Of a stretch of 64,000 nt of DNA, positions 39,323 through 50,443 are shown piece by piece (positions within the stretch are counted from its first letter, which is position 1; every line of letters begins with the position of its first letter). The position numbers and the translations under genes were made by a program. This DNA comes from Mycobacteriales bacterium (GTDB lineage Bacteria; Actinomycetota; Actinomycetes; Mycobacteriales; SCTD01): contig JAUYQP010000045.1 in assembly GCA_030697205.1 (NCBI GenBank), positions 1-64,000 of the forward strand, given 5' to 3'. The notes under the pieces were generated by a model. That model worked only from the letters and a program-made list of their open reading frames with translations, made no database searches and was not told the DNA's origin.

Positions 39323-39961
39323 TCAGACGGGCTTGGCGAACACCACGACGTTGCTGCGGTAGCTCTTGCTGCGCCGGTCGAAGTCTCCGCCGCAGGTGAC
39401 GAGCCGCAGGGACTCCTTTCCGTCGCCGCGATAGACCAGCTCAGTGGGGAAGTCGCGCTTGGCGTAGGTGCGGACCAGGGTCACGGCGTAGGTGACCAGC
39501 GAGCCGTCGGCGCGTCGTACCTTGATCGTGTCGCCCTTGCGCAGCTCGTCGATGCGGGCGAAGACACCGGGGCCGCGGAAGCTGTCGACGTGGCCGGCGA
39601 TGACCGCTGGGCCCTTGTCGCCGGGGGCGGGGCCCTGCGCGTACCAGCCGGCGCGCATCGGGTCGGCAGGGACCTGCAGCCGGCCGGCGCGGTCCTTGCG
39701 GAGCCCGATCAGGGAGCTCGTGACCTTCAGCCGGGGGATCCCGATCCGGATCGGAGCCGCCGCCCGTCGCTCCGAGACGGCCACCGCGACGACGGGTCCC
39801 GCGCCGCGCTCCGCGGCGAGGTCCTTGCGCGCCGCGTCGACGAGCACGAGGTCGGTGGCGAGCACTGCAGCGAGGACCACCGCCTGCAGCGCGGGGGTGC
39901 GCCACCGGCGAGCCGGCGCAGGACGAGAGGGGTCGAGTCCTCGTCCTGCGCCGGTCGCCAT
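39323..39961 (-). CDS. Class F sortase
   Basis: 212 residues. N-terminal signal anchor (ALQAVVLAAVLATDLVLVDA), then a sortase beta-barrel with catalytic His in AVIAGHVDSF, Cys in LRLVTCGGDFD and Arg in SYRSNVVVFA. Length and the TCGG context fit class F, the actinobacterial housekeeping-like sortases. It lies 5 bp downstream of the DUF4331 protein whose C-terminus has a surface-anchor layout, making that protein the obvious candidate substrate. Confidence 0.9.
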   Translation of the reverse strand: MATGAGRGLDPSRPAPARRWRTPALQAVVLAAVLATDLVLVDAARKDLAAERGAGPVVAVAVSERRAAAPIRIGIPRLKVTSSLIGLRKDRAGRLQVPADPMRAGWYAQGPAPGDKGPAVIAGHVDSFRGPGVFARIDELRKGDTIKVRRADGSLVTYAVTLVRTYAKRDFPTELVYRGDGKESLRLVTCGGDFDRRSKSYRSNVVVFAKPV

Positions 39962-39966
39962 GGGGA

Positions 39967-41550
39967 TCAGACCGTGACGCTGGTGCGGCGGCGCAGGAGC
40001 AGGCCCGAGCCGGCGAGGGCCGCACCGAGGACCGCGAGGGTCACCGGCAGGACCGGGAGCCCGCCGTCGGCGCTGCCACCGAAGCCGGTCGAGACGCCGC
40101 CCTGAGGAGCGGTCGCCGTCCCACCTGCGCTGTTGCCCGTGCTGTTGCCGGAGGTGGTGCCGGCGGAGCTGCCGCGCGCCTGGGTGCTCGAGCCGGAGTG
40201 CGGGAGCGCGACGTAGGGGAACGCGCTGCCGAAGGCGAGGTCGTTCTCGTTGACGCCGTCACCGGCCGCGAGCGCCTCCACGATCGTGCCGGTACGGACC
40301 GCGCCGACGAGCGCCTGCAGCTCGATGTCGACGACGTCGTCGGTGAGGCGGCGGCCGTTGGGGAAGCCCGCGGTGTCCTTGGCGAGGACGCCGAGGCGGT
40401 TGGCGGTGGCTGCCGGCGCGATCGTGGTGTTGAGGCGCAGCTGCTCCGACGGCGTCACCTTCGGCGGCTGGTTGAGGCCCTTGATGCCGGTGAGGAAGGC
40501 GGCGACGAGGTCGTCGCGAGGGGCGGCGGGGGCCGGCACCTTGTAGATGGCCTCGAGGAGTTTGGGGACCTCGGGGTCGCTCACGCGCGCGACGGCCTCC
40601 ATGACGGAGCCGTCCTTGTCGGGCGTGAGGGAGTTGAAGGCGTCCTTGAGGTTGGCCGGGAGGACGACCTCGTTGACGAGCGGGCTGCCGAGGCGCGAGA
40701 CCTGGACGAAGTCGCCGCTCGGGGTCGCCTTGCCCGGAGTGAGGGTCAGCGTCTGCTGCTCGGTCGTGCTCCAGACGCCGACGATGCCGCTGCCGTCGCC
40801 GCCCTCGGTGAGGGACGCGGTCGGGACCTGCAGCGCGACCGTGTTGACGTTGTAGCCGGTCAGCGTGTCGTTGCCGGCCTCGGACAGGTCGGCGCCGTAG
40901 AGCAGGTCGAAGACGCGCAGGTCGAGGAAGAACGGGTCGTCGGCCTGGCCGACATAGCTCCTGCCGCCGCCGTCCACGGACTCGATGGCCTCGTCGCGCA
41001 GGGACGCGTAGTTGGGCATCGTCGCCTCGCCGACGTTGCTCGGGGCCACCTTGCCGGTGTCGACCAGCGTCTTCGCCATGCCGTCGCCGTCGAGGACCTC
41101 GAGCGTGTAGGTCTGCTTGAACAGCAGCGTCGCGTCGTCGAAGGAGTTCACCGGGCCGTTGGCGTAGAGAAACGTCTCGCCACCGCGCTTGTCGACGTTG
41201 GTGAACGTCCACCGGTAGGTGAGGTCCGGCAGTGCGTCGCCGTCGTTGTCGACCTTGATGTCGTAGCGGTAGCCCTCCGCGCCCCACGGGTAGAAGTTCG
41301 GGCCGCCGGACGGGTCCTGAAAGCCCGTCCAGTTGGCGATGAGCGTCGTGGTGTCGGGGGCGTCGGGGCTGACGAAGGCGTAGGTGTCGGTGTTGTCGAC
41401 GAGCGGGTTTGCGGAGGTCAGGGGGGCCTCGCGGTGGCTGGAGGCGCTGGAGGTGCCGGGAGCCAGGACCAGCGCGCTGCCGGTCATCGCCAGACCGGAC
41501 GCGAGCATCAGGGACCCGGCGCGGCGCGGGGTCGATCGGAGACGGGACAT
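39967..41550 (-). CDS. DUF4331 surface protein with C-terminal membrane anchor
   Basis: 527 residues. Signal peptide (LMLASGLAMTGSALVLAPGTSSA) then SSHREAP, the DUF4331 start, with family blocks DNTDTYAFVSPD, PNFYPWG, YRWTFTNVDKRGG, DDPFFLDLRVFDLLYG, GYNVNTVALQVP and PLVNEVVLPANLKD. A Gly/Ser/Thr linker precedes GGLPVLPVTLAVLGAALAG and a basic RRRT tail, a sorting-signal-like arrangement without a canonical LPXTG. ATG at 41550 has GAGGAG 6 bases upstream. Paralogue of the gene at 44862. Biochemical role of DUF4331 unknown. Confidence 0.88.
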   Translation of the reverse strand: MSRLRSTPRRAGSLMLASGLAMTGSALVLAPGTSSASSHREAPLTSANPLVDNTDTYAFVSPDAPDTTTLIANWTGFQDPSGGPNFYPWGAEGYRYDIKVDNDGDALPDLTYRWTFTNVDKRGGETFLYANGPVNSFDDATLLFKQTYTLEVLDGDGMAKTLVDTGKVAPSNVGEATMPNYASLRDEAIESVDGGGRSYVGQADDPFFLDLRVFDLLYGADLSEAGNDTLTGYNVNTVALQVPTASLTEGGDGSGIVGVWSTTEQQTLTLTPGKATPSGDFVQVSRLGSPLVNEVVLPANLKDAFNSLTPDKDGSVMEAVARVSDPEVPKLLEAIYKVPAPAAPRDDLVAAFLTGIKGLNQPPKVTPSEQLRLNTTIAPAATANRLGVLAKDTAGFPNGRRLTDDVVDIELQALVGAVRTGTIVEALAAGDGVNENDLAFGSAFPYVALPHSGSSTQARGSSAGTTSGNSTGNSAGGTATAPQGGVSTGFGGSADGGLPVLPVTLAVLGAALAGSGLLLRRRTSVTV

Positions 41551-41662
41551 GGTGCTCCTCACGTATGAATCGGACGAATCGCCCGACTGCTTGTGTCATG
41601 CATCCGTCCGGGCGGCCCGCGCGGTTCATTTCCGTGGCCGAGCGGTCGGCCCGCCGGTCAGG

Positions 41663-43399
41663 TCAGAAGACGTCGCGGGCAGTGCCGAGACCGCGCACGG
41701 CGAGCGCGAGGCCGAGCAGGACGACGACGCCGGCGGTGAGGGCCGGGAGCAGCCGACCGAGCCGGCGGGTGCGGGCGAGTCGCCAACCGCGGCGCTCGGC
41801 GACGCCCTGCGCGCGCAGCAGCAGCAGGCCGGCGGCCACGAGGGTGGCCGCCATCCCGATGCCGTAGCCCAGGACGAGCAGTACGCCGAAGGGCGCGCGG
41901 CCGAGCGCGGTCGCCCCGAGCAGGACCACGAGCACCGACGGGCTCGGGACGATGCCGCTCGCGACGCCCATGGTGGCCAGGGACCGCCACGTGAGGGGAC
42001 GGTCGGGGGGCGGGGCGTGGCTGTGGGCTCGGCCGCCGTGGCTGTGCACGAGCACGGGTCCGGTCGCAGGCTCCTGCGGGATGTGGTGATCACTGTCGGG
42101 GTCCGAGCGCTCATGATCGCCACGTCCTGGTGAGGCGGGGGCGACGGGCTCGTGGTCGTGCGGGATGTGGTGATCACCGTGGGGGGCTGAGCGCGCATGA
42201 TCGCCACTTCCCGCGGAGGCTGAGGCGACGGGCTCGTGGGGGTGGTCGTGGGGGTGGTCGCGATCACCGTGGGGGTGGTCGTGGGCGATGTGGCGATCAC
42301 CGTGGGGGGCTGAGCGCGCGTGATCGCCACGTCCCGCGGCGGGGACCGCGGCGGGGTGGTCGTGGTCGGGGGTGCCGCGCAGACGGCGCAGCGCCCCGGT
42401 GAGCAGCCACGCACCGATGGCGACGAGCAGCACGCCGGACAGCACCTCGGTGGCGGGCACGACGCGCTCGGGGGCGACCAGGGTGCCGAGGTTGATGAGC
42501 AGGCCGAGCAGCAGCACCGACGCGGTGTGGCTGACGGTGACGAAGGCGCCGAGCAGCAGGGCCTGCCGGCGGGTGCCGCGGGTGCCGACGAGGTAGGCCG
42601 CCATGACGGTCTTGCCGTGGCCGGGGGCAAGCGCGTGCAGGCATCCGAACAGCACCGACAGCGCGAGCGCCCCCAGCCCGGTGAGCAGCCCGAGGTCGTC
42701 GCGGCCGACGAACGCGGTGAACTCCGCGGTCAGCCGGTCGACCCCGCGCGGCGCGGCGACGTCGGGCGCGGTGTCTCCCGCGGCCCCGGTCCGGCAGGGA
42801 CCACTCGCGAGGGAGACGGCGGCGGTGCGGACGTCCGGCGGCGACTGCAGTGACTCCTCGGGATAGGCGAGGAGCAGCTGCGACGGGGACTCGAGAGGTA
42901 CGTCGGAGGCGACCACCTCCCCGCACAGCGTGTCGGCGGTGACCTCCTTCCACCCGGTGCGGTCGGCGGCGGAGGAGTCGGTGAAGGCGAGTGATCGCGC
43001 CGGGCGGGTGTCGGTGCGCAGCGCGCACTCGAGCCGGGTCGTCGTGAGGCCGGCCTGACCGGGCAGGGAGCGGCCTGACGAGGACTCCAGCCGCAGCGGC
43101 GCGGGGGAGCCGTCGACCACGAGCTCCAGCTGGGGGAGGACCTGGGCGCACAGGGTCCCGGCGTACGCCGTGATCTCGGGGTCCGACAGCGACGCCGACC
43201 CGTCGGTGTCGGCGGTCTCGCGCAGCTGCACGGTCGGGATCTCGGCGAGGTCGACGACGTGGGTGACCGCGACGCCGGAGCCGTCGACGACCAGGCGGTC
43301 GGCGGTGTTGGTCGTGAAGTTGCCGAGCGGGTGCGCCCACGCCGCGGTCGGGAGCAGCAGCGCCCCCGTCAGCAGGCCCACTGCGACGAGGCGCCTCAC
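41663..43399 (-). CDS. NicO-family nickel/cobalt transporter with extracellular domain and His-rich loop
   Basis: 578 residues. A signal sequence (VAVGLLTGALLLPTAAWAHPLGNFTTN) is followed by a 240-residue extracytoplasmic domain, then a membrane part with the metal motif HALAPGHGKTV at about residue 275, three helices, a 120-residue Pro/His/Asp-rich loop (residues about 345-460), and three more helices. The loop contains three 16-residue repeats of the form GDHxRSxPxxDxHI, each encoded by a 48-bp palindromic DNA element. His-rich loops in this family bind Ni/Co. GTG overlaps the TPR gene stop by 4 bases. Confidence 0.87.
   Translation of the reverse strand: MRRLVAVGLLTGALLLPTAAWAHPLGNFTTNTADRLVVDGSGVAVTHVVDLAEIPTVQLRETADTDGSASLSDPEITAYAGTLCAQVLPQLELVVDGSPAPLRLESSSGRSLPGQAGLTTTRLECALRTDTRPARSLAFTDSSAADRTGWKEVTADTLCGEVVASDVPLESPSQLLLAYPEESLQSPPDVRTAAVSLASGPCRTGAAGDTAPDVAAPRGVDRLTAEFTAFVGRDDLGLLTGLGALALSVLFGCLHALAPGHGKTVMAAYLVGTRGTRRQALLLGAFVTVSHTASVLLLGLLINLGTLVAPERVVPATEVLSGVLLVAIGAWLLTGALRRLRGTPDHDHPAAVPAAGRGDHARSAPHGDRHIAHDHPHGDRDHPHDHPHEPVASASAGSGDHARSAPHGDHHIPHDHEPVAPASPGRGDHERSDPDSDHHIPQEPATGPVLVHSHGGRAHSHAPPPDRPLTWRSLATMGVASGIVPSPSVLVVLLGATALGRAPFGVLLVLGYGIGMAATLVAAGLLLLRAQGVAERRGWRLARTRRLGRLLPALTAGVVVLLGLALAVRGLGTARDVF
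42080..42127 (-). repeat. 48-bp palindrome inside the transporter gene, copy 1
   Basis: On the plus strand opens GATGTGGTGATCAC and ends ATGATCGCCACGTCC. Encodes GRGDHERSDPDSDHHIP on the minus strand. The most diverged of the three coding copies. Confidence 0.8.
42164..42211 (-). repeat. 48-bp palindrome inside the transporter gene, copy 2
   Basis: Opens GATGTGGTGATCACCG and ends GCGCATGATCGCCACTTCC. Encodes GSGDHARSAPHGDHHIP. Inner GGGGGGCTGAGCGCGC is shared with copy 3. Confidence 0.85.
42287..42334 (-). repeat. 48-bp palindrome inside the transporter gene, copy 3
   Basis: Opens GATGTGGCGATCACCG and ends GCGCGTGATCGCCACGTCC. Encodes GRGDHARSAPHGDRHIA. Closest to the intergenic copies at 15892 and 56345; a partial fourth left arm (GCGATCACCGTGGGGG) lies at about 42260-42275. 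Confidence 0.85.
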
Positions 43400-44706
43400 G
43401 AGGACGGCAGCGAGGCGAGCAGCGCCTTCGCGCGCGGGGCGTGCAGCGGGCTGAAGGCCGGGTTGAGCTCGAGCGCGCGGGTCAGCGCGGTGCGGGCCAG
43501 GGTGGTGTCGCCGGCGGCGGCCGCGATGGCCCCGAGGTGCCACTGGAAGGACGGGTTGCGAAAGCCGGTCCGCACCGCCTGCTTCGCGATCGGCAGCGCC
43601 TCGCGGGAGCGGCCGGCGGCGTGCAGCGCCCAGGCGTAGGCGTCCTGGACGTAGACCGCATGGGGCCGCGAGCGGTAGGCCGCGGCGGCCGAGGCGACGG
43701 CGGCGGCAGGCGTGCCGTGGTCGGCCTCGAAGACGGCCAGCTCGGTGTCGACGTCGGCGCCGGCCGCGGCGAACAGCTGCTGGGTGGCCCGCACGACGGA
43801 GTACTGCTGCTGCGCCGCCGGGGTCTGCCCGGTCGCCTCGAGCAGCTCGCCGAGCTCGGTGACGTACTGCGGGGCGGGGAGCCGCGACACGACCTCGCGG
43901 TAGTCGGCGAGCGCGGCCGTCGGGTCGCCCTGCGCCGCGAGCACCTTCGCGCGTCCCGCCAACGACGGGAGGTACGACGGGTCGGCGGCGAGCGCGCGGT
44001 CGTAGGCGGCCTTCGCGGCTGTCAGGTCACCGGAGGCCCAGGCGAGCTCGCCGAGGTACTGAGACGCGAACGCCTGGTCGGCCGGTGCGACGGCGTCCTC
44101 GCGGGCCTGCTCCATCGCCGCCTTGGCCTGCGCGACGTCGCCGCGCAGCTCGAGGACGTAGGAGAGCCGGGCGTAGGCGTCGGTGCCGGGTCGCAGCTGC
44201 ACCATCCGGTCGACCGCGCGGGCCGCCTCGGCGTACCTCCCGAGCTCCACGAGCGCGTCGGTCTTCACGCCGTAGGTGGTCGCCGAGAAGTCGTTGTCGC
44301 GCAGGGCCGCGTCGGCGAGCCGCAGCGCGTCGGCGAAGTCGTGGCGCGCGGCCGCGAGGGTCGCCTGGCCGGTGAGCGCGTCGGGGGTGGGCCGGATCGC
44401 GAGCGAGCGGGCGAAGGCGGTCTCGGCGCGGCCGTAGTAGGACGGGTCGGCGGTGAGGCGGGCCTTCTGGACGTAGGCCGAGCCGAGCTCGTGCCAGGCC
44501 CGGAAGTTCTTCGGGATCCGAGTGACGGTCGCGGTGAGGTCGGTGATCGCCGCGTCGAGCGGGTCGGCTGCCTCGGTGACCGTCGGGGCCGTGGGCGGGG
44601 CCGGCTCGGGGGTGCCCCCACCGGCGACCGCGCCGACCACGAGCAGCGCCGCGGCGAGCCCGACGATCGCGACGCCGACGGTGGCGCGACGGGCGAGGCG
44701 ATGCAC
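43396..44706 (-). CDS. Membrane-anchored TPR protein
   Basis: 436 residues. One N-terminal helix (ATVGVAIVGLAAALLVVGAVAGGG), a Pro/Thr linker, then about ten tetratricopeptide units (for example FRAWHELGSAYVQKARLTADPSYYGRAETAFARSL, ASQYLGELAWASGDLTAAKAAYDRALAADPSYLP). TPRs mediate protein contacts, probably outside the membrane here. The GTG at 44706 has GGAGGA 9 bases upstream. Coupled to the nickel/cobalt transporter; divergent from the second DUF4331 gene with a 155-bp shared promoter region. Confidence 0.85.
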   Translation of the reverse strand: MHRLARRATVGVAIVGLAAALLVVGAVAGGGTPEPAPPTAPTVTEAADPLDAAITDLTATVTRIPKNFRAWHELGSAYVQKARLTADPSYYGRAETAFARSLAIRPTPDALTGQATLAAARHDFADALRLADAALRDNDFSATTYGVKTDALVELGRYAEAARAVDRMVQLRPGTDAYARLSYVLELRGDVAQAKAAMEQAREDAVAPADQAFASQYLGELAWASGDLTAAKAAYDRALAADPSYLPSLAGRAKVLAAQGDPTAALADYREVVSRLPAPQYVTELGELLEATGQTPAAQQQYSVVRATQQLFAAAGADVDTELAVFEADHGTPAAAVASAAAAYRSRPHAVYVQDAYAWALHAAGRSREALPIAKQAVRTGFRNPSFQWHLGAIAAAAGDTTLARTALTRALELNPAFSPLHAPRAKALLASLPSS

Positions 44707-44861
44707 GCGGGTGTCCTCCGAGTCGCGGGGGTGGGTGGTGTCGGACAGCGTTCGCGTGCCAGCCGCAATCGGACTGTGGCCGTCAGGACACAGCAAGGGT
44801 CCCATCCGCTGGTCGCTCTCGCGCGAACGGCGTGGGAAGGACGTCCAACACAAGGAGACCC

Positions 44862-46673
44862 ATGGCACGCACTCTCAGGACACCGGCGCGACGACGCGCT
44901 CTGGCGGTCCTCACCGCTGGCGCGACCGTCGCCGGCGGTTGCGCACTGCTCGGCCCGGGCACCAGCTCGGCCTCGAGCCACCGCGAGGCGCCGTACATCC
45001 TCGGCGACCCCGCGGTCGACAACACCGACACCTACGCCTTCGTCAGCCCCGACGACGCCAGCTCGGTGACCTTCGTCGCCAACTGGGCGCCGTTCTCCGA
45101 GCCCGGCGGCGGCCCCAACTTCTTCCCGTGGGACACCGACGCGGCCTACGACATCAACGTCGACAACAACGGTGACGCGAAGGCCGACATCGTCTACCGC
45201 TGGACGTTCGCCGACGTCGACAAGCGCGGCGCCCAGGAGCGCGGCAAGGTCGACGGCACGTTCCTGCTCAACGACGGTCCGGTCACCGACCTCGACGACC
45301 CGAACCTGCTCTACCGCCAGACCTACGACCTGCAGGCGATCCCGTTCACCAACGGCACCGCGGGCACGCCCGTCACGATCGTCAACGACGGCAAGGTCGC
45401 CCCGAGCAACGTCGGTGTGGCGTCCATGCCCGACTACGTCGAGCTCCGCCAGGAGGCGGTCACGCCGCTCGCCGGCGGTGCCGCGGGCAAGTCCTACGTC
45501 GGCCAGGCCGACGACCCGTTCTACCTCGACCTGCGCATCTTCGACCTGCTCTACGGCGGTGACCTCTCCGAGGTCGGCTACGACACGCTGTCGGGCTACA
45601 ACGTCAACACGGTCGCGCTGCAGGTCCCGAAGGTGGCCGTGGCCGGTGCCGGCAACGTCACCGACAACCCGGTCATCGGTGTCTGGTCGACCACCAGCCG
45701 CAAGGCCACCCGCACCTTCAAGGCCACCAACGCCGCGCCGACCACGAGCGCGACCGACGCGACCGACGCGACCGACGACACGGGCGCCTTCCAGCAGGTC
45801 TCGCGCCTGGGCAACCCGCTCGTCAACGAGGCCGTCGTCCCGGCCAACCTCAAGGACTACTTCAACCGGTCCACGCCGGACAAGGACGCGCAGTTCCTCG
45901 GCAAGGTGCAGGACCCCGAGGTCCCGCAGCTGATCGAGCTGCTCTACAAGATCCCGAACCCCAACAAGACGCCCAAGGGCGCCGACCGCCCCGACCTCGT
46001 CGCCGCGTTCCTCACGGGCATCGACGGCCTCAACGCCACCAAGATCAACAAGAACAACGCGAGCCCGGCACCGGCGGAGTACCTCCGTCTCAACATGTCG
46101 ATCCCGCCGACCACCAGCAACAGCGGCCAGGGCAACCGCCTCGGCGTCGTCGCCGGTGACAACGCGGGCTTCCCCAACGGCCGTCGCCTCGGTGACGACG
46201 TCGTCGACATCGCGTTGCAGGTCCTCGAGGGTCTGCTCGTGCCGGACCAGGACCCGGCCGTGAAGAAGGCCGTCTCCGGTCTCGGTGACGCGGTCTCGAA
46301 GAACGACGTCTCGTACCTCGGCGTCTTCCCCTACATCGGCGACCCGCACACGGGCTCCGACCTGCGTCAGGGCGCCTCGCCGGTGAGCTTCACGCAGAGC
46401 TTCACCAGCGCCGGTGGCAAGGTCACCGCACAGGTCACCGGCATCAGCCCGGCAGCCCCGGGCGGCTTCGCGGTCCTCTACCGCGTGAACGGCAACGGCA
46501 GCCTGACCGGCCTCGGCCAGTCCTCGCTCAACGCCGCCGGCACCGCCGGCCCGGCCCGCGTCATCCCGTGGACCTCGGGCCAGAAGCTGACCCTCGTCTG
46601 GCGCGTGTTCCCCAAGCGCGGCAGCGTCGGCCAGATCAACCGCGGCGAGCCGACGACGATCACCGTCCGCTAG
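44862..46673 (+). CDS. DUF4331 secreted protein
   Basis: 603 residues. Signal peptide (ALAVLTAGATVAGGCALLGPGTSSA) followed by SSHREAP and the same blocks as its paralogue at 39967 (DNTDTYAFVSPDD, PNFFPWD, DDPFYLDLRIFDLLYGGDLSE, GYNVNTVALQVPK, PLVNEAVVPANLKD). Instead of a membrane tail it ends in an Ig-like or beta-sandwich segment (KVTAQVTGISPAAPGGFAVLYRV, LTLVWRVFPKRG). The ATG at 44862 follows AAGGAG. Inferred to act in the same surface system as the TPR and transporter proteins. Confidence 0.88.
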   Translation: MARTLRTPARRRALAVLTAGATVAGGCALLGPGTSSASSHREAPYILGDPAVDNTDTYAFVSPDDASSVTFVANWAPFSEPGGGPNFFPWDTDAAYDINVDNNGDAKADIVYRWTFADVDKRGAQERGKVDGTFLLNDGPVTDLDDPNLLYRQTYDLQAIPFTNGTAGTPVTIVNDGKVAPSNVGVASMPDYVELRQEAVTPLAGGAAGKSYVGQADDPFYLDLRIFDLLYGGDLSEVGYDTLSGYNVNTVALQVPKVAVAGAGNVTDNPVIGVWSTTSRKATRTFKATNAAPTTSATDATDATDDTGAFQQVSRLGNPLVNEAVVPANLKDYFNRSTPDKDAQFLGKVQDPEVPQLIELLYKIPNPNKTPKGADRPDLVAAFLTGIDGLNATKINKNNASPAPAEYLRLNMSIPPTTSNSGQGNRLGVVAGDNAGFPNGRRLGDDVVDIALQVLEGLLVPDQDPAVKKAVSGLGDAVSKNDVSYLGVFPYIGDPHTGSDLRQGASPVSFTQSFTSAGGKVTAQVTGISPAAPGGFAVLYRVNGNGSLTGLGQSSLNAAGTAGPARVIPWTSGQKLTLVWRVFPKRGSVGQINRGEPTTITVR

Positions 46674-49236: not shown

Positions 49237-49389
49237 CCGCCGAGTCTGCGTCCGGGTCCTGCCTGGTCGCGGAGCCGGGGAACCAACCGTTCCCCCGGGG
49301 TGAATCGGCGCTTGGGCCTCTGCGTGCAGGGGGTGCGGCGTCGTAGGGCAGCTTCCGAGCCCGAACCCGACAGCTCACCCGGTAGGCGG
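49237..49389 (+). ncRNA. c-di-AMP riboswitch (ydaO/yuaA type)
   Basis: Recognised from the conserved landmarks in order: a CCGCC P1 strand at 49237, GAGCCGGGGAACCA, GGGGTGAATCGG, GTAGGGC, then CCGAACCCGACAGCTCACC and GGTAGGCGG closing P1 at 49385-49389. Binds cyclic di-AMP; ligand binding usually lowers expression of the downstream gene. Placement just ahead of a secreted NlpC/P60 cell-wall hydrolase is classic for actinobacteria, where it links c-di-AMP and osmotic state to peptidoglycan cutting. Confidence 0.93.
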
Positions 49390-49417
49390 GCGACGGAAGG
49401 ACAGGAGAGCCGCCGTC

Positions 49418-50443
49418 ATGGCGACCCCCCGCGTACCCAGCTCCCGCACGCGCCGCTTGCTCGTCTCCGCAGGTCTTGCCGTGGCCGTCGCGACCGGTGT
49501 GGCGGTCGCCCCGTCGGGCGCCGTCGCCGAGCCGCGCCCCTCGCTCGCCGAGGTGGAGCGCCGCGTCGACGCCCTCAACACCGAGGTCGAGCGGCTGGCC
49601 GAGGACTACAACGAAGCCCGCCTCGTCCTGCAGACCGCGGCCCGGGCCGGTGCCGCCGCGAAGGCGCGCGTCGCCCGCGAGCAGGCCAAGCTCGAGCAGG
49701 CCCGCGCGACCCTGTCTGCAGTGCTCGCCGGTGCCTACCGCTCCGGTGGCACCGACGCGGCGGTCTCGCTCATCGGCACCACCGACCCGCAGGTCTTCCT
49801 CGACCGGGCGTCCAGCCTCGAGGTGCTCGCCCGCAGCCAGGCCGACCAGCTGGCCGACGTCGCCGTCGTGCGCAAGCGACTCGCTGACCTGCAGGCCGCG
49901 GCCGACCGACAGGAGCAGGCGCAGCGCGACATCCAGAGCCGGATCGATGCCCGCAAGAGCGACATCGAGAAGAAGCTGCGCGAGCAGCAGGGCCTGCTCA
50001 GCGGTCTGCGGGCTGACGAGCGCCGGCGCTACGCCGCAGCGCGCGCCAGTCGCGAGCGCGCTGCGGCTCCGCGCGCGACCTACAACGGTCCGGCAAGTGG
50101 TCGCGCGGCGGTCGCCGTGCGCGAGGCCTACGCCCAGCTCGGCAAGCCCTACAAGTGGGGCGCTGCCGGCCCGGACCGCTTCGACTGCTCCGGCCTGACC
50201 ATGTGGGTGTGGGGCAAGGCAGGCGTGTCGCTGCCGCACAACAGCCGCGCGCAGTTCGCCAGCGGCCGCAAGGTGGCGCGCAACGACTGGCAGCCCGGAG
50301 ACCTGCTCTACTTCGGCAGCCCGATCCACCACGTCGCGATCTACGTCGGCGGCGGCAAGATGATCAGCGCCCCGCAGACCGGCGACGTCGTCAAGCTGCG
50401 CGGCGCCCAGCGCAACGACTACGCGGGCGCGACCCGCCCCTGA
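49418..50443 (+). CDS. Secreted NlpC/P60 peptidoglycan endopeptidase (RipA-like)
   Basis: 341 residues. Signal peptide (LLVSAGLAVAVATGVAVAPSGAVA), coiled-coil N-domain at residues 40-215 (VERRVDALNTEVERLAEDYNEARLVL, QRDIQSRIDARKSDIEKKLREQQGLLSGL), and a C-terminal NlpC/P60 domain with catalytic Cys in RFDCSGLTMW, His in IHHVAIYVG and the following polar residue. Cuts stem peptides of peptidoglycan; the coiled coil may autoinhibit it. Ribosome site GGAGAG at 49404. Expression is expected to follow the c-di-AMP riboswitch upstream. Confidence 0.95.
   Translation: MATPRVPSSRTRRLLVSAGLAVAVATGVAVAPSGAVAEPRPSLAEVERRVDALNTEVERLAEDYNEARLVLQTAARAGAAAKARVAREQAKLEQARATLSAVLAGAYRSGGTDAAVSLIGTTDPQVFLDRASSLEVLARSQADQLADVAVVRKRLADLQAAADRQEQAQRDIQSRIDARKSDIEKKLREQQGLLSGLRADERRRYAAARASRERAAAPRATYNGPASGRAAVAVREAYAQLGKPYKWGAAGPDRFDCSGLTMWVWGKAGVSLPHNSRAQFASGRKVARNDWQPGDLLYFGSPIHHVAIYVGGGKMISAPQTGDVVKLRGAQRNDYAGATRP

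Follow-up and report, generated by a model that had tools for sequence, protein, structure and literature searches.

A locus on a 64,000-nucleotide stretch of a Mycobacteriales bacterium (GCA_030697205.1, contig JAUYQP010000045.1, positions 1 to 64,000 of the forward strand; the window) encodes two DUF4331 proteins, a tetratricopeptide repeat (TPR) protein, a NicO-type permease and a class F sortase. It is near certain that this gene set represents a conserved functional module, and very probable that the module handles transition metals. The predicted mature DUF4331 proteins begin with Ser-Ser-His, a pattern of the amino-terminal Cu(II)- and Ni(II)-binding (ATCUN) type, and the permease carries an outside domain that is predicted to start with His and resembles a copper-bound domain of known structure. 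Capture of metal at the cell surface for import is the single mechanism that we favour, with a probability of roughly 0.55. The features of the locus, in window positions, are:

39323–39961, minus strand: class F sortase (NF033748, 178.2 bits, cut-off 166; also PF04203)
39967–41562, minus strand: anchored DUF4331 protein (PF14224, 503 bits; alternative ATG start at 41550)
41434–41442, minus strand: predicted mature N-terminus Ser-Ser-His of the anchored DUF4331 (ATCUN pattern; cleavage by the (-3,-1) rule only)
40075–40101, minus strand: GGVSTGFGG sorting motif of the anchored DUF4331, next to a C-terminal helix at about 39991–40059
41663–43399, minus strand: NicO-type permease with an outside N-terminal domain and a His-rich loop (PF03824, 52.1 bits)
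42725–43333, minus strand: outside domain of the permease, predicted mature start His1 (HPLGNF), anglerase-like fold
42005–42375, minus strand: His-rich cytoplasmic-side or loop segment of the permease (approximate bounds, by eye)
43396–44706, minus strand: TPR protein with an N-terminal membrane anchor (by eye; PF07719 and other TPR models; GTG start picked manually)
44707–44861: intergenic region common to both arms (155 bp)
44862–46673, plus strand: second DUF4331 protein, secreted, without a C-terminal anchor (PF14224, 489 bits)
44973–44981, plus strand: predicted mature N-terminus Ser-Ser-His of the secreted DUF4331

The layout agrees with the preliminary description of this DNA, which had placed five genes in two divergent arms around a 155-bp region and had taken one DUF4331 protein to be anchored and the other secreted. 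Profile matches bear out the DUF4331, TPR, NicO and sortase assignments, both DUF4331 proteins lying far above the PF14224 gathering score of 27 and the permease above that of PF03824 (27.7), and anchoring holds by way of the non-LPXTG motif GGVSTGFGG and a membrane helix. The permease and TPR genes overlap by 4 bp. A search of the whole assembly returned no third DUF4331 gene, and both copies in the genome thus sit at this locus.

Conservation of the gene set

The locus sample comprised the window, 79 loci and 80 further genome stretches (160 in total), all picked by DUF4331 and several ending at contig edges. Profiles built in the course of the analysis placed the same TPR family in 130 of the 160 loci; NicO permeases appeared in 115 of them and class F sortases in 27, figures in which both members of a duplicate pair (L053 and L178) are still counted; L053 was dropped from later counts. 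The commonest order is DUF4331 (D), optionally the sortase, the TPR protein (T) and the NicO permease (N), or else DUF4331 divergent from TPR-NicO, which is the arrangement in most loci of the window genome's own family. Because the loci were selected by DUF4331 and some reach contig edges, a genome-wide count is the fairer test. Among 296 Actinomycetota genomes, DUF4331 is present in 58, the TPR protein in 46, and a NicO permease with an outside domain, identified from the starts of the profile matches, in 36. All 36 genomes with this His1-type permease encode the TPR protein (36/36) and 35 encode DUF4331, which is likewise found in 43 of the 46 TPR genomes. The neighbourhood is strongly conserved; lack of conservation in other genomes would, by the preliminary description, have told against a metal capture and uptake system. 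Fifteen DUF4331 genomes are without the TPR protein, many of them holding only divergent or partial DUF4331. No further tight universal partner gene emerged from the loci, the largest cluster of other open reading frames (ORFs) extending over 34 loci at scattered distances. Several Streptomyces-like genomes (G023, G128, G161, G182, G193, G107 and G246) hold an extra copy of the TPR protein distant from DUF4331, and G107 and G246 have the TPR protein without any DUF4331.

A conserved X-X-His start in DUF4331

A free X-X-His amino terminus, the ATCUN motif, chelates Cu(II) or Ni(II). To count this pattern, 158 of 166 DUF4331 ORFs were assigned to the main family; left out were L055 (a spurious motif match), L174, L179 and L187 (ORFs without the motif), and L076–L079, which together with 20 further stretches form a divergent set of 24. 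In 142 of the 158 main-family proteins the SSHREAP context is compatible, by the (-3,-1) rule, with signal peptidase cutting immediately ahead of Ser1, and a further 14, from 13 loci, have no signal peptide and start with Met-Ser-Ser-His; the two exceptions to the Ser-Ser-His start are L044 and L189. Since Ser after the initiator Met leads to Met removal, the mature start of the signal-less form would equal that of the secreted form. The ATCUN position in sequence, His3 behind a predicted free amino terminus, is thus found in 156/158 main-family proteins and in all 24 divergent members, of which 23 have [SAP]-x-H directly after the start codon (SHH, SNH, SDH, ADH or PDH) and one (L211) has ADH behind a plausible cleavage point. 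The divergent members have lost most of the invariant residues of the family while keeping His3. In the 18 divergent members that allowed the measurement, 21 or 24 residues separate the N-terminus from the next conserved motif, with His3 constant; the remaining six were missed by the regular expression used for spacing, but [MV]SxH is visible in them. As His remains third despite variable spacing, selection seems to act on how far it lies from the free amine, a distance on which ATCUN chelation depends. We infer from these sequences that DUF4331 binds Cu(II) or Ni(II) through Ser-Ser-His in the ATCUN manner.

The AlphaFold2 model of DUF4331 is confident overall (predicted local distance difference test score, pLDDT, 91.3; predicted template modelling score 0.93), and it has no Foldseek match at E < 0.001; the best hit in a second structural comparison, to antibody domains, reaches Z 5.8. 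A sequence search of the PDB gave no relative at E up to 10. Assignment of a function by fold was accordingly abandoned for want of a significant match, from which novelty of the fold does not follow. No mention of DUF4331 or PF14224 was found in the open-access literature searched.

The permease and its outside domain

The outside domain of the permease provides a second, independent His at a predicted amino terminus. Of 114 NicO ORFs examined, 110 have His-Pro at the start of this domain, the four without a recognisable His-Pro start being L063, L131, L181 and L195, and a compatible cleavage site by rule lies right before His-Pro in 104 of the 110 (AxA in 92). In the window permease predicted cleavage falls between AWA and HPLGNF, with His1 directly behind the signal peptide of a domain of ~200 residues. 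Invariant columns of the domain include H1, P2, D28, A30, E31, Q36 and E130. Its AlphaFold2 model (pLDDT 92.0) has a single PDB match at E < 0.001, the Cu-bound Ang-1 domain 9gce (Foldseek E 5.4e-6, probability 1.00, from the predicted model), with which it aligns over 136 residues at a root-mean-square deviation of 3.5, Z 9.0 and 17% identity; the next fold matches are zinc-binding ZrgA (Z 7.7) and PA4063 (Z 6.6). In PMC12537917, anglerases are described as outside domains that start with His1 (Ang-1 or Ang-2) on HupE/UreJ-2 permeases; Ang-1 is reported to bind Cu2+ (Kd 73.6 nM) and Ni2+ (Kd 220 nM) through His1, and metal capture for the permease is proposed. Its main text does not mention DUF4331, tetratricopeptide or NicO, and within the open-access literature the term anglerase was found in PMC12537917 only.

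Other links to metals

Several neighbours and genome-wide associations point in the same direction. A NiCoT-type permease with RHAFDADH, an HX4DH form that we take to be the signature of NiCoT uptake permeases, lies near DUF4331 in seven loci, and Pfam confirms the assignment in L126 and L136. The distances between the two genes are:

~1.5 kb: L122, L123, L126, L136 and L137
3.5 kb: L098
6 kb: L144

The signature is absent from the window NicO permease, and the ORFs that have it are these seven neighbours and a weaker one in L188. Genomes with the module encode nickel superoxide dismutase (SOD) more often than the others do (28/36 versus 56/260, ancestry not corrected for). In a 160-genome subset all module genomes are positive for cytochrome oxidase (16/16), and among oxidase-positive genomes only, nickel SOD is found in 15/16 with the module versus 31/73 (p = 1.7e-4). 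The link with urease is weak (14/36 versus 43/260, p = 0.003, using a hand-made list of stronger urease matches).

The signal-less DUF4331 proteins have a partner of their own. In all 13 loci that encode them, a small protein marked by the motif LDIGGDIGAL and frequently by His runs (for example in L095, L097, L115, L057 and L105) is encoded at a centre-to-centre distance of no more than ~1.1 kb, and a profile of this protein matches none of the other loci among the 160. Four examples of the gene, besides which nine more loci hold one, are:

L095: 8439–8900
L097: 8659–9168
L115: 7887–8321
L057: 8712–9161

For five LDIGGDIGAL proteins searched, Pfam and NCBIfam gave no specific family, the weak matches being mostly to His-rich metal proteins. 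Two DUF4331 proteins without a visible signal peptide (L098:8481–10085 and L115:8267–9934) nevertheless have a C-terminal membrane helix. The L098 protein also bears a GVDTG motif, and downstream of its gene lies one that resembles a class F sortase gene.

DUF4331 as a candidate class F sortase substrate

The tail of the anchored window DUF4331 lies at the cut-off (29) of NF058571 (GVDTG_CTERM), scoring 28.7 bits on the protein and 33.7 bits in a six-frame search. All 22 DUF4331 proteins encoded no more than 3 kb from a class F sortase gene have a C-terminal helix, versus 46/136 of the others. The tail motif [GA][GA][VATIS]x[TASGP]GxG[GSTA] occurs near the end of 19 of the 22, versus 8/136 (p = 1.8e-15, an optimistic value given that the expression was composed after inspecting these tails). 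These distributions suggest that DUF4331 is likely to be a class F sortase substrate. LPXTG anchoring was considered and rejected, the motif of the DUF4331 tail being different. In the literature searched, no described substrate of a class F sortase was found, and papers containing the string GVDTG are, to judge by title and abstract, on other subjects. The window genome encodes one more GVDTG-like tail (L002; G000:C4:9364–9477), which at 21.7 bits does not reach the cut-off of 29 and may belong to another class F sortase substrate.

The module in other phyla

Matches to DUF4331 were also found in 35 records, among them plasmids of Pseudomonadota, Bacteroidota and Cyanobacteriota; 13 of the 35 were examined in detail. 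A D-T-HupE/UreJ order occurs in Marinobacter (L199), Pseudoalteromonas (L200 and L231), Lichenicola (L203) and Comamonadaceae (L230). The TPR models match clearly in L199 and L200 and weakly in L203, and the middle gene of L230 and L231, annotated as hypothetical, was assigned as T by eye. In the unannotated Variovorax record (L228), D is accompanied by a HupE-like ORF and possibly by a middle ORF, again by eye. Nostoc (L206) has D-T-NicO, and D-T alone is found in Adhaeribacter (L202), where DUF4331 has a C-terminal Por secretion tail, and in Miltoncostaea (L204). In Jannaschia (L201), Sulfitobacter (L205) and Paracoccus (L229), D adjoins type II secretion genes, with no T or permease within the stretch. 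The divergent DUF4331 of a Rhizobium record (L227) begins MSDH. The HupE proteins that adjoin DUF4331 in Pseudomonadota read AxA|H, or similar, around the predicted cleavage point, with His1 as the first mature residue.

Proposed mechanism and alternatives

Taken together, these observations suggest an envelope module for transition metals, with nickel, cobalt and copper as candidates. DUF4331 would be displayed outside the cell, where its free Ser-Ser-His would chelate Cu(II) or Ni(II). In the window genome the class F sortase, dedicated to this task, would attach one copy to the wall at GGVSTGFGG, and the other copy would be released. The membrane-tethered TPR protein would keep DUF4331 close to the membrane, and the NicO-type permease would take over the metal at its anglerase-like His1 domain and move it, most likely inward. 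Metal binding by DUF4331, transfer among the parts, the role of the TPR protein, the direction of transport and the identity of the metal are all inferred.

Cell-surface metal capture and uptake was also the role suggested in the preliminary description, and its parts fare differently. The link with metals is strengthened by the X-X-His start of DUF4331, the anglerase-like His1 head, the nearby NiCoT permeases and the His-rich partner. The set itself proves to be variable in membership, given that the sortase is confined to a minority of loci and that D-T occurs without the permease in G001, G114, G135, G167, G261 and G274, from which it follows that transport is not the entire function. Uptake as the direction is called into question by the RcnA efflux subfamily (NF007454, PRK10019), which among curated NCBIfam models matches the permease best, though at 113.2 bits the match falls below the cut-off of 195. 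Further points weigh against surface capture for import: (i) the first ten residues of the DUF4331 model are less certain than the rest (mean pLDDT 73); (ii) signal cleavage was assessed by a simple (-3,-1) rule rather than a dedicated predictor; (iii) the co-occurrence statistics ignore shared ancestry; and (iv) the 36 invariant columns over 79 DUF4331 sequences would also suit an enzyme.

The last point, together with D-T as the more constant core from which the permease can be absent, leads to an unlikely alternative, namely that DUF4331 is an extracytoplasmic metalloenzyme for which the TPR protein serves as assembly factor and the His1 permease of the NicO/HupE type provides or recovers the metal cofactor instead of importing metal for the cell. 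The large conserved fold is compatible with this, and signal-less forms with the same start adjoin a His-rich partner, much like a metal chaperone. However, neither the structure searches nor the PDB sequence search relates DUF4331 to a known enzyme, ATCUN sites exposed at a surface usually serve to bind metal, and divergent members have shed most invariant residues but retained His3. Export of Ni or Co by an RcnA-like NicO protein, with DUF4331 sequestering metal outside, appears more improbable still: the subfamily match and the His-rich loop of the permease favour efflux or detoxification, but the RcnA model stays under its cut-off, capture from outside accords with an outward-facing His1 head and with the example of the anglerases, and NiCoT permeases, an uptake family, adjoin DUF4331 in some loci. 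We give least credence to a surface scaffold unrelated to metals, in which the SSHREAP start would be conserved merely for docking onto the protein fold. The REAP and downstream DNTD residues are indeed conserved too; yet His is third by two maturation routes and in 24/24 divergent members with differing neighbours, and the permease has an independent His1 domain of a Cu-binding fold.

A wider generalization may be offered tentatively, at a little under even odds: DUF4331 would be a pan-bacterial metal-binding family whose mature X-X-His start is reached by signal peptidase outside the cell or by Met removal inside it, and which, with a TPR tether and a His1 permease, would form a general system for surface capture and hand-over of Ni, Co or Cu, sorted by lineage-specific machines (class F sortase, the type IX Por tail and possibly type II secretion). 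A widespread family without an assigned role, present in 58/296 Actinomycetota as well as in Pseudomonadota, Bacteroidota and Cyanobacteriota, would thereby gain a hypothesis that hinges on a single residue. The anglerase concept of 2025, in which permeases carry a His1 head, would be extended to NicO permeases, with missing partners proposed for them, and a candidate substrate and motif can be named for class F sortases.

Regulatory elements and genomic context

A scan of the window and of six further loci found no known RNA control element near the locus, and inspection by eye of the upstream stretches of 13 loci, the window included, revealed no evident common promoter motif in the divergent region. 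Elsewhere in the window a c-di-AMP riboswitch (RF00379, 55.9 bits; 49250–49404, plus strand) lies just 5' of ORF 49418–50443, by appearance a secreted coiled-coil cell wall hydrolase of the NlpC/P60 type (by eye), and the RNA scan detected a fluoride riboswitch in locus L098. Genes for extracytoplasmic function (ECF) sigma factors occur near 11 loci, including a sigma gene stretch at L054:3309–5042, and in two Pseudoalteromonas records ECF sigma and anti-sigma factor genes stand directly 5' of the module (L200:5588–6804 and L231:4346–5550); control of the module by envelope or metal stress is possible. A mobile origin of the locus was rejected, with no match among phage records.

Comparison with known systems

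The window permease shares with anglerases an N-terminal His1 outside domain before a permease, the same class of beta-sandwich fold and a proposed role in metal capture. Because its membrane part is NicO rather than HupE/UreJ-2, it is not a strict Ang-1/Ang-2 member; PF13795, by which anglerase permeases are recognised, has no match in it at E up to 0.1, whereas the three Pseudomonadota partners tested do match, and identity to Ang-1 is low. With NicO/RcnA proteins it has in common a PF03824 match above cut-off and the His-rich loop, and it differs from them in the outside domain and in its sub-threshold RcnA score. Compared with NiCoT permeases (HoxN/NixA), it has the form HALAPGHGKT instead of RHAFDADH. 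On the sorting side, the sortase is above the cut-off of NF033748 and the DUF4331 tail lies at that of the GVDTG model NF058571, but the sortase-linked motif of these loci is less narrow, about GG[VA]x[TASG]GxG, and points to DUF4331 as the likely substrate. DUF4331 shares with ATCUN peptides and proteins the free X-X-His start in sequence; unlike typical ATCUN cases, it is a family of ~400-residue proteins in which that start is reached either by signal cleavage or by Met removal, and through which metal binding is predicted.

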